This document shows, one piece after another, positions 51,288-63,420 of a stretch of 64,000 nt of DNA (position 1 is the first letter of the stretch; each line of letters starts with the position of its first letter). Position numbers and translations under genes: made by a program. The stretch covers positions 1 through 64,000 of the forward strand of contig NZ_LWHJ01000032.1 in assembly GCF_001652725.1 (NCBI RefSeq). The letters run 5' to 3'. The notes beneath the pieces are model-generated. The model saw nothing but the letters and a program-made list of their open reading frames with translations. It was not told where the DNA came from and did not search any database. The DNA is from Pedobacter psychrophilus (GTDB lineage: Bacteria > Bacteroidota > Bacteroidia > Sphingobacteriales > Sphingobacteriaceae).

Positions 51288-51369
51288 TGACTCATTAAAC
51301 CTGTCTCCGCAGTACCATAATGGGGAACCTGTTAAATAGCAAATGAAGTAATTATCAATTTTATAGGTT

Positions 51370-51451
51370 GCGCTAACGATTGAAGCGGCATCCTTTTTGT
51401 CCGCCAGCTGGCGGACAAAAAGATACAGCGGAAAGCGTGTTAAAGCGCCCA
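51370..51451 (-). repeat. Palindromic intergenic repeat, copy B (downstream of tex)
   Basis: Inverted relative to copy A, sharing CCGCTTCAATCGTTA and TTTAACACGCTTT on the minus strand. Its centre is a perfect 28-bp palindrome (51394-51421, arms TTTTTGTCCGCCAG and CTGGCGGACAAAAA), which would form a strong hairpin in RNA from either strand and may also serve as a tex terminator. Confidence 0.8.
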
Positions 51452-53895: not shown

Positions 53896-54372
53896 TTATT
53901 TCAAAGTAATTTGTCTTTTAATGCTTTCTTCTAAAGAGATAAAAGTCTCGGTACGTTGTATGCCAGAAACTGCCTGTATCTCATCATTCAATACATATCG
54001 TAAATGATTGGTATCTCTACAAATAATCTTGGCGAACATAGAATAACCGCCTGTTGTGTAATGTAGCTCTACAATTTCTTTTATTTTTTTTAACTCATTA
54101 ACGGCATCATGATAGATGGAGCCTTTTTCTAGGTAAATACCCAAGAAAGCACAAATATCATAACCCACCTTTTGGGCATCAACAATTAAATTAGAACCTT
54201 TAATAATTCCTAAATCCTGCATCTTTTTCATCCTCACATGAATAGTACCACCAGAAACGATTAACTCTTTTGCTATTTCAGTATAAGCAGTAGTTGCATC
54301 GTTCATTAAAATAGACAAAATATCTATATCTAAATTATCAATTTCTAAATTAGGTCTCAATTTATCAATCAT
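53896..54372 (-). CDS. Lrp/AsnC-family transcriptional regulator
   Basis: A 158-residue regulator. The AsnC-type helix-turn-helix is at about 12-55 (LDIDILSILMNDATTAYTEI, SGGTIHVRMKKMQDLGII). A RAM ligand-binding domain follows (AFLGIYLEKGSIYHDAVNEL, VELHYTTGGYSMFAKIICRD). Such proteins sense amino acids and control their metabolism. The target is not evident from the neighbours. It is divergent from the tRNA-like gene. Confidence 0.93.
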   Translation of the reverse strand: MIDKLRPNLEIDNLDIDILSILMNDATTAYTEIAKELIVSGGTIHVRMKKMQDLGIIKGSNLIVDAQKVGYDICAFLGIYLEKGSIYHDAVNELKKIKEIVELHYTTGGYSMFAKIICRDTNHLRYVLNDEIQAVSGIQRTETFISLEESIKRQITLK

Positions 54373-54445
54373 GTTTTTATCGATTATTAATATTTAACAA
54401 GTATAAATAAAAAATTAATAAAAATTAAAATATTTTGTTGAAATA

Positions 54446-54477
54446 TTTGCAACGTATTGCCTTTTGCTTTACATTTG
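54446..54477 (+). promoter_or_regulatory. Bacteroidota-type promoter of the tRNA-like gene
   Basis: TTTG (54446-54449), 20 bases, then TACATTTG (54470-54477), an excellent match to the phylum consensus. Transcription would start near 54484, about 50 bp before the tRNA-like body. Confidence 0.8.
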
Positions 54478-54534: not shown

Positions 54535-54646
54535 TGTAGGGTGGTGAAATTGGCAGACACACCTCCTTGTCTCGGTGGCGAAGATTTGGGAAATAGCCGC
54601 AAGGTGAAATAACTGCTTCGTGTAGGTTCGACTCCTACCCCTACAG
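54535..54646 (+). tRNA. Atypical tRNA-like gene: class II body with GTC (Asp) anticodon
   Basis: 112 nt. The acceptor TGTAGGG pairs with CCCTACA, discriminator G. The D arm GTG-AAATTGGCAGA-CAC has GG in the loop, as in Leu/Ser tRNAs. The T arm GTAGG-TTCGACT-CCTAC is normal. The anticodon arm is CCTCC-TTGTCTC-GGTGG: one T-T mismatch in the stem, and GTC at 54569-54571. The region between anticodon and T arms is 43 nt (54579-54621), closed by CGAAG/CTTCG, far longer than the 10-24 nt usual for Leu, Ser or Tyr tRNAs. G10, G34, T35, C36, C38 and G73 match the E. coli AspRS identity set. A strong promoter precedes it and a hairpin follows. It may be a divergent tRNA-Asp, a Leu-type tRNA that lost its identity, or a tRNA-derived RNA. 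CCA is not encoded. Confidence 0.62.
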
Positions 54647-54681: not shown

Positions 54682-54716
54682 TTAAGCTCCATTCTCCCCG
54701 TTTGGAGCTTAACTGT
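54682..54716 (+). terminator. Hairpin downstream of the tRNA-like gene
   Basis: TTAAGCTCCA (54682-54691) pairs perfectly with TGGAGCTTAA (54703-54712), 11-nt loop, followed by CTGTTTTAT. The T-tract is short, so it could be a processing or termination site. Confidence 0.6.
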
Positions 54717-62316: not shown

Positions 62317-63420
62317 TTATTGTAAAATGAGGGCTGAGAAAACAAGGGCAGAGGTATTTGCTTTTGAGTTTACCTTGTAACTAATAAAACTACCTGCCGG
62401 TATATAAATATTTGAAGTAGATGACCCTGTCGAATTAGCAGCAATAGTAACGGCTAGAGCGGTATCGTTCATTGAAGTGGGGCTTGTACCAACCCTTAAT
62501 GTTAAGGTTAAACTTTGTGAAGTACCATTAAAGACAGTTAGTTTTTTTGCCTTACACGCTACAGGAATTAATGATGAAACATAAGAATTTTCAGTTGCAG
62601 CATTCGAATTTGAAGAAGTTACAGATGTAAATCTACTGCTATTATTTAAATTTCTGCTTGTTGTAAATAATGTTGGGATACCTAGAGTAAATTCGCTTAT
62701 TGCATCTTCTCTTAAATAATTGTTAGAATTTGCTGCTTCAGAATTGATATTATTTGCACTAAAAGTTGTAGGACTTGTTAAACTTGTACCTACTGGTCCA
62801 GTAGTTCCGGTAGCTCCTGTAGCCCCAGTAGAACCAGCAACTCCTCCAGTTGCACCAGTTGCACCAGTTGCTCCAGTAGCGCCCGTTGCTCCAGGAGTAC
62901 CTACTATACCTGTAGCGCCGGTTGCGCCTATAGCGCCAGTAATACCAGTTGCACCAGTTGCTCCGGTAGTTCCTGTAACACCAGTTGCTCCCGTTGCTCC
63001 CGTTGCTCCTGTAGTGCCGGTAGCGCCAGTAGTTCCAATTGCTCCAGTAATACCAGTAGCACCTTGTGCTCCAGTTGCTCCCGTTGTTCCTATAGTTCCA
63101 GTAGCACCTTGTGCTCCAGTAGCGCCAGGAATGCCTTGAAGCCCTTGTGCTCCAAACAAAATCCAAGCTGATCCATTATAATAATAAAATCCAGAAGTTC
63201 CGTCTGTTTGATATATTAATAATGCTAATGCAGGATTTGTTATCGCATTTTTTTGAGCTGCTGTCATTCGTGGAATTAACATTCCTTTTGTTGTACTCTT
63301 TATATCTAAAATTGAACTATTATCTGCAGTAGAACCATCAGCATTGATGGCAATACTTTGCGCTTTTATAGTAAGTGAAGCACATAAAATGATGGCTAAG
63401 TAGAAAATTTTTATTTTCAT
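62317..63420 (-). CDS. Secreted collagen-like (Gly-X-Y) repeat protein
   Basis: A 367-residue protein with a signal peptide ([20 protein letters not shown]). A Bacteroidota-type N-terminal module follows ([30 protein letters not shown], residues about 22-88), then about 40 Gly-X-Y triplets (residues 90-211), mostly GAT, GTT and GAQ. A C-terminal beta-rich domain follows (about 220-367, [20 protein letters not shown]). Such proteins resemble phage-tail-fibre-like or surface-filament proteins that trimerise through a collagen helix. One single-residue insertion breaks the triplet register near residue 195. Its start lies 7 bp after the stop of the upstream T9SS protein, so they are co-transcribed. 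Its function is unknown. Confidence 0.85.
62788..63153 (-). repeat. Tandem Gly-X-Y coding repeat
   Basis: About 40 imperfect 9-bp units encoding [12 protein letters not shown]-type triplets inside the collagen-like gene. Codon use varies between units, so the DNA repeat is looser than the protein repeat. The strong bias keeps long antisense frames open by chance. Confidence 0.88.

Follow-up and report, generated by a model that had tools for sequence, protein, structure and literature searches.

A tRNA-fold RNA with an aspartate anticodon beside an AsnC-like regulator in Pedobacter psychrophilus, possibly a carrier in asparagine metabolism

The first 64,000 nucleotides (nt) of contig NZ_LWHJ01000032.1 from Pedobacter psychrophilus (assembly GCF_001652725.1, forward strand; hereafter the window) harbor a small RNA gene in which a leucine-like class II tRNA body carries the aspartate anticodon GUC. 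This gene lies head-to-head with a gene for a regulator resembling AsnC. The features of the locus are as follows.

53896..54372, minus strand: gene for a 158-amino-acid Lrp/AsnC-family regulator, closest to AsnC and divergent from the RNA gene (profile and PDB matches)
54428..54448, no strand: palindrome AAATATTTTGTTGAAATATTT, overlapping the -33 element
54446..54477, plus strand: promoter TTTG-N20-TACATTTG, read by eye and presumably of the Bacteroidetes type
54535..54646, plus strand: tRNA-fold RNA gene of 112 nt with Leu-like class II body, GUC, U1-A72 and G73 (sequence, covariation and the covariance model R1 described below)
54567..54573, plus strand: anticodon loop UUGUCUC, holding G34 U35 C36 U37 C38 (sequence reading)
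54579..54621, plus strand: variable domain with outer stem CGAAG/CTTCG, 5' bulge, short helix, asymmetric internal loop and inner hairpin, the inner parts read by eye
54682..54712, plus strand: genus-wide conserved 3' hairpin whose loop reads CUCCCCG and whose tip pairs covary as judged by eye

Reading of the sequence bore out the anatomy given in an initial annotation of this DNA, namely the arms, the GTC anticodon, a T-T mismatch and a 43-nt variable region closed by CGAAG/CTTCG. The cloverleaf is complete, with acceptor stem TGTAGGG/CCCTACA, U8 and G9, the Leu-like D arm GTGAAATTGGCAGACAC, anticodon arm CCTCC-TTGTCTC-GGTGG with its single T-T mismatch, T arm GTAGG-TTCGACT-CCTAC and discriminator G73; CCA is not encoded. 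The bases expected of an aspartyl-tRNA synthetase (AspRS) substrate, G34, U35, C36, C38 and G73 in the determinants listed in part of PMC9976931, are all present, as are those expected of a substrate of the amidotransferase GatCAB, U1-A72 without U20a (D loop GGCAGA, numbered by eye). A tRNA-Leu would have A73 and a Leu anticodon, whereas this RNA has G73 and GUC; a tRNA-Asp would have G1-C72 and a short variable loop, whereas U1-A72 and the 43-nt region are found here; and the combination of long arm and G73 is that of tRNA-Ser, yet the D arm is Leu-like. As for elongator tRNAs, U33 is kept but position 37 is U instead of a purine.

The covariance-model scan proposed in the initial annotation was made with two models. 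The Rfam tRNA model RF00005 scored the RNA at 35.3 bits against a gathering threshold of 29 in a search of a 401-base stretch around the gene, and R1, built from 28 members of the family, matched it at 112 bits (E 5e-28). The RNA gene was not reported by RF00005 in the whole window or in the genome of this organism (150 of 429 candidates scored), it was missed by ARAGORN on the window, and Rfam at gathering gave no match in six further loci whose members have long domains or G33/C33. The single-sequence folding energy (z -0.55) is by itself no evidence for structure. Covariation was examined in alignment A2, which carries a hand-written structure and holds 28 diverse members, these being 28 of 31 dereplicated copies found by a sequence pattern (D arm plus UGUC). 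In this alignment 93.8% of cells pair and 22 of 28 pairs vary on both sides; neither statistic was reached by any of 500 shuffles, and slid controls of the structure paired at 43-58%. The acceptor, anticodon, variable and T stems all covary strongly; pairs 3-70 to 7-66 do so freely, and 1-72 and 2-71 are invariant. The presence of U1-A72 in 28 of 28 members is partly by choice, because the copies omitted were L092 (G1, A73), L123 (A1-U72) and L084. The window RNA is a covarying tRNA-fold RNA; a chance structure is ruled out by the A2 covariation and the R1 matches.

DNA similarity placed the RNA in 15 of 18 genomes of the genus, the present one included. The initial annotation had called for such a check of relatives, and the outcome rules out a Leu tRNA damaged in a single strain. 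Across the family, presumably the Sphingobacteriaceae, the pattern matched in 124 of 399 genomes and 8 of 25 genera, with at least one match (L067) due to chance, and a reversed-pattern control gave zero matches among the genomes listed. At the level of the class, presumably Bacteroidia, R1 found copies in 48 of 295 genomes from 19 families, a carrier being defined by an R1 match of at least 72 bits and more than 100 nt. As 10 candidates were scored per genome, some apparent non-carriers may still have a copy. The R1 scores are bimodal, with members at 72-112 bits and 107-195 nt; matches listed below 70 bits (down to about 60) are mostly 80-86 nt and presumably ordinary tRNA-Leu, which L185 proved to be when read.

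Some copies vary in arrangement or form. Tandem arrays of two or three copies were seen at L136 (1241-1609), L134, L135, L144, L147, L148 and L152, and in genus g14 the tandem copies are of two types with variable domains of about 40 nt and about 74 nt. Additional hairpin-like insertions lie within the D loop of L179, L180 and L181. The copy in G514 (L182), a genome outside the enzyme-profile sample described below, is damaged, and in two copies from one genus, L184 (G455; AUC, short arm) and L169 (G581; CUC), base 34 is altered with U35 and C36 kept.

The same pattern matched 45 stretches in viral contigs, of which about 35 were judged members and 10 were not. RNA-bearing viral contigs reach about 139 kilobases (kb), and one of 108 kb has phage-type neighbours. 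Such copies would suit a selfish tRNA or a decoy that phages disseminate, for example one that resists host anticodon nucleases. We regard this as highly improbable, since the chromosomal copies are linked to one regulator in 15 of the 19 RNA-holding families and the link to GatCAB set out below does not fit it. BLAST of phage records gave no match or short matches only, and BLAST of plasmids short matches only. In a 122-kb viral contig (L051, 6234-7505) the RNA is followed by Leu, Leu, Ser, Tyr and Trp tRNAs. Two further Leu-like tRNAs with GUC from viral contigs, L092 203-292 (A73) and L123 470-565 (A1-U72), are possibly separate inventions.

Elongator tRNAs follow a rule of U33 and a purine at position 37. 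Bases were counted in 61 host R1 matches, 60 of them parsed (88 of 89 over all members, the exception being L182). GUC and C38 are each kept in 59/60, and U1-A72 and G73 in 61/61, while position 37 is a pyrimidine in 52/60 and position 33 is G or C in 11/60. The parse template demanded U35 and C36 (a template-free parse gave GUC in 57/61), and the host counts lean to the bases of the model because R1 was built from copies selected by UGUC. After dereplication below 90% identity the counts were 39/40 for GUC, 39/40 for C38, 34/40 for pyrimidine 37 and 8/40 for non-U33. Among the pattern-found copies U1 and G73 occur in 85 of 87 (29 of 31 when dereplicated), and the pattern had fixed neither base. 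The initial annotation had proposed six AspRS determinants; G34, U35, C36, C38 and G73 are kept family-wide while stems, body and variable domain diverge, but G10, present in the window RNA, varies. According to part of PMC9976931, G73, G34, U35, C36 and C38 are the strong Asp determinants, and U1-A72 makes Asp-tRNA a target of amidation, which G1-C72 and U20a block. An ordinary tRNA-Asp, whose presence the initial annotation had suggested checking, does exist in this genome and has both blocks, which rules out a missing tRNA-Asp as the explanation. Among 30 tRNA sequences of this genome (30 of 34 matches compared), U1-A72 occurs in Asn and Gln tRNAs only. The decoding features look decayed, because the purine at 37 is absent in 52/60 and U33 in 11/60 host copies. 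Judged by its sequences, the RNA keeps the bases that two enzymes would read and loosens the bases that the ribosome needs.

These counts bear on two alternatives. The RNA might be a decoding tRNA that places Asp, or Asn via GatCAB, on GAC/GAU codons, either as regulated Asp-to-Asn miscoding or as an extra phage tRNA-Asp. U33 in 49/60 host copies fits such a role, as do two members in alignments A2 and A3 with a tRNA-Asp-like UGUCAC and the short-arm phage copies L048, L051 and L054, which ARAGORN calls tRNA-Asp. We nevertheless consider decoding unlikely in view of the frequent pyrimidine 37 and G33/C33, the T-T mismatch in the anticodon stem of the window lineage and the ordinary tRNA-Asp already present; plain Asp decoding would also leave GatCAB without a role. 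The class II arm and G73 could alternatively make the RNA a SerRS substrate, and thus a serine carrier, for which the anticodon would be irrelevant. For an enzyme such as SerRS, which can dispense with the anticodon, the retention of GUC and C38 in 59/60 host copies would be unexpected; GatCAB again gets no role, and we regard a serine carrier as highly improbable.

The neighbouring protein scored 173.6 bits against the AsnC model, with the next family at 69.7, and its best PDB match was 2cg4, AsnC of Escherichia coli. Of 94 fetched host loci, among which two genomes count twice, 71 have an AsnC-like gene head-to-head with the RNA, divergent in every case. Among the class-level loci this arrangement was found in 31 of 49, from 15 of 19 families; in families f3, f63, f64 and f66 no AsnC-like neighbour was seen within fetched flanks of up to 1.5 kb. 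E. coli AsnC activates asnA, and asparagine abolishes the activation, as stated in part of PMC4482635. In genome G008 a diverged copy with loop TTATAAT (L046 and L044, at 1501-1593 and 1501-1612, are the two copies of this genome) adjoins the AsnC-like gene, and the intact copy lies about 35.6 kb off with no such gene in its flanks, perhaps after an insertion or rearrangement.

Between the two genes, the promoter elements TTTG (54446-54449) and TACATTTG (54470-54477) were recognized by eye, and a sigma-70 scan gave no promoter at 54446-54477. The consensus promoter of the initial annotation stands as Bacteroidetes-type elements without a sigma-70 match, and its hairpin is likewise real, with arms at 54682-54691/54703-54712, but no T-run terminator was found at it. 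The palindrome at 54428-54448 is a candidate operator for the regulator; it is imperfect in several relatives. A boxA-like GTTCTT(T) lies between promoter and RNA in the leaders of many of loci L069-L089 and of L175 and L179-L181. Such motifs occur in rRNA leaders, and by analogy their presence suggests transcription in the style of stable RNAs. Elsewhere in the window we noted a Flavo-1 RNA (RF01705, 59.2 bits, 51361-51446, plus strand) and a protein with a long collagen-like repeat (62317-63420, minus strand).

The variable domain ranges from 15 to 123 nt (86 of 89 members counted). Sequences and single folds, read by eye, share a common plan: an outer stem of 4-5 pairs is followed by a 5'-side bulge, which often has 4 nt and is AUAA-like, then by a helix of 3 pairs and an asymmetric internal loop, often GAUAAA / CUAA, with an inner hairpin beyond. 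The weakest element is the helix of 3 pairs, which covaries but pairs in just 70.8% of A2 cells. This structured domain with its recurring bulge and internal loop, the GGUUGACCA-like motif in 31 of 88 parsed members and the adjoining regulator gene would be in keeping with a regulatory RNA, as the initial annotation had also considered. Such an RNA might report nitrogen or asparagine status either through its variable domain or by being uncharged or charged with Asp or Asn, perhaps by binding the AsnC-like protein or another partner. The domain is reduced to only 15-26 nt in four phage copies, and regulation by itself does not explain why the RNA tracks GatCAB, unless Asn-RNA is the signal; we think a regulatory role rather unlikely.

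The genome of P. psychrophilus has gatB, glnS (for GlnRS), asnS (for AsnRS) and a bacterial-type AspRS. Enzyme profiles were compared in 80 genomes, 41 of 48 carriers and 39 of 247 non-carriers, which were hand-picked rather than random and for which the statistics ignore phylogeny. A gatB over the cut-off was found in 41/41 carriers versus 21/39 non-carriers (Fisher P 1.8e-7), and among the 42 glnS-positive genomes in 23/23 carriers versus 1/19 non-carriers (P 5e-11); all 23 of these carriers also have asnS. All 38 genomes lacking glnS, of which 18 are carriers, have gatB, as expected if GatCAB makes their Gln-tRNA. Within families f1, f2 and f36, gatB is present in the carriers but missing from the glnS-positive non-carriers sampled; a genus of f16 shows a similar contrast, its carrier having gatB and two non-carriers no full copy. 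Some assignments are not clear-cut. Two of the 39 non-carriers, G554 (L183) and G455 (L184), hold variant or decayed copies, that of G554 next to an AsnC-like gene with 40% identity; the partial gatB match of G456 was scored as absence; and the sole glnS-positive non-carrier with gatB, G409, has a weak match in a frame of 1120 amino acids. In a set of 55 same-family genomes, gatB is present in 19/19 pattern carriers and the pattern is absent from 13/13 genomes without gatB; the other 23 have gatB without the strict pattern, and the three of these screened with R1 are carriers.

Leu rather than His in the RD-x-GG motif of the AspRS anticodon domain would point to a discriminating enzyme. The AspRS of this organism has RDLGG, as in 1c0a and 1efw, versus RDHGG in the Asp/Asn ligase 4wj3; its closest structure, 6wom, has Lys at this position. 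Judged on one residue of this one enzyme, with no aspS search for a second enzyme made, the sequence weakly suggests that this AspRS does not charge tRNA-Asn. In some bacteria with AsnRS and GlnRS, GatCAB works with a non-discriminating AspRS that acts on tRNA-Asn, as described in part of PMC4206432. If the AspRS here is discriminating, the present RNA would therefore be the natural substrate of GatCAB. A replacement for an absent asparagine synthetase was rejected as the role of the RNA, as an AsnB-type synthetase is over the cut-off in most carriers (asnA was outside this test); three carriers (G399, G679 and G633) fall under the AsnB cut-off by E-value. E. coli itself has two asparagine synthetases.

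With moderate confidence, we favor a role in asparagine metabolism, in which this tRNA mostly stays out of decoding and serves as the carrier for asparagine production by AspRS and GatCAB. AspRS would charge the RNA with Asp by reading G34, U35, C36, C38 and G73, and GatCAB would recognize U1-A72 and amidate Asp to Asn with glutamine as donor. The odd anticodon loop and the bulky variable domain may keep Asn-RNA off the ribosome. A more specific version, in which the RNA is a nucleic-acid cofactor that AspRS loads with Asp and GatCAB converts to the Asn form, with the product released for metabolism or passed to a non-ribosomal acceptor, is offered tentatively. Release of free Asn would be the simplest end, because the neighbouring regulator resembles the one that governs E. 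coli asparagine synthetase A; the Asn might also pass to a different acceptor or act as a signal. The AsnC-like regulator would tune transcription of the RNA, probably in response to asparagine, much as AsnC acts on asnA. Phage copies, some with simpler arms, may raise asparagine supply or serve as tRNAs. What is demonstrated of this picture is that the RNA forms a family with conserved determinants, that it is linked to the regulator and that it co-occurs with GatCAB; the remaining steps are proposed. The initial annotation had thought of a charged Asp-tRNA of novel shape; the AspRS identity bases are indeed kept, but that proposal misses U1-A72, the decay of U33 and purine 37, the AsnC-like gene and the co-occurrence with GatCAB.

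Several observations weigh against the carrier reading. The gatB association comes from the hand-picked, phylogeny-blind sample, its within-family contrasts are limited to four families (f1, f2, f16 and f36), and three non-carriers of f1, the family of this organism, were known beforehand to lack gatB. Twenty genomes with gatB and without glnS are non-carriers, and the other 20 of the same-family genomes with gatB, screened by the strict pattern only, may be exceptions. AsnB-type synthetases are over the cut-off in 72 of 80 genomes, this one included, and the proposed route would therefore be redundant or additional. The regulator falls under the cut-off of the AsnC equivalog model NF008384 (173.6 versus 227 bits) and is thus not formally an equivalog; in 23 of 94 host loci the fetched flanks show no AsnC-like gene, nor do the fetched parts of the viral contigs with phage copies. 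U33, kept in the window RNA as in most host copies, would also suit decoding. According to part of PMC9976931, G1-C72, normal in bacterial tRNA-Asp, aids E. coli AspRS, and U1-A72 may therefore weaken charging.

If the carrier reading is true, many bacteria of the class and some phages keep a tRNA that has been recruited, under control of the AsnC type, into an enzyme system for making asparagine. This would add a widespread RNA family, could explain why GatCAB is retained in some bacteria having both GlnRS and AsnRS, and would show a tRNA evolved into a metabolic carrier, with enzyme-read bases conserved and decoding bases drifting. We found no prior report of such an RNA in the open-licence literature and, to our knowledge, none is known. 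Amidation on tRNA and the diversion of tRNAs from translation are already known; what appears to be new is their combination, together with the class II body and the link to a regulator.

Among the tRNAs of the same organisms, tRNA-Leu is alike in D arm and overall body but has A73, other anticodons and a short arm. All five strong AspRS determinants are shared with tRNA-Asp(GUC), whereas the ordinary tRNA-Asp of this genome differs in G1-C72, U20a, A37 and its short variable loop. In E. coli, asnC and asnA are divergently arranged. That pair likewise places an AsnC-like regulator beside a gene for asparagine supply, its control here being a proposal, but the neighbour in Pedobacter is an RNA gene and not asparagine synthetase A. 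The cell-wall-bridge tRNA-Gly of Staphylococcus aureus is of ordinary class I shape. It is likewise a tRNA paralogue diverted from translation, as described in part of PMC8007984, but involves no amidation step. Closest in chemistry is tRNA-dependent asparagine synthesis by a non-discriminating AspRS and GatCAB, with which the proposed route shares amidation of Asp on an RNA, U1-A72 and G73 (parts of PMC4206432 and PMC9976931). That system relies on a decoding tRNA-Asn(GUU) and a relaxed AspRS, whereas the RNA described here combines GUC with a class II body and a large variable domain, and the AspRS of this organism may be discriminating.
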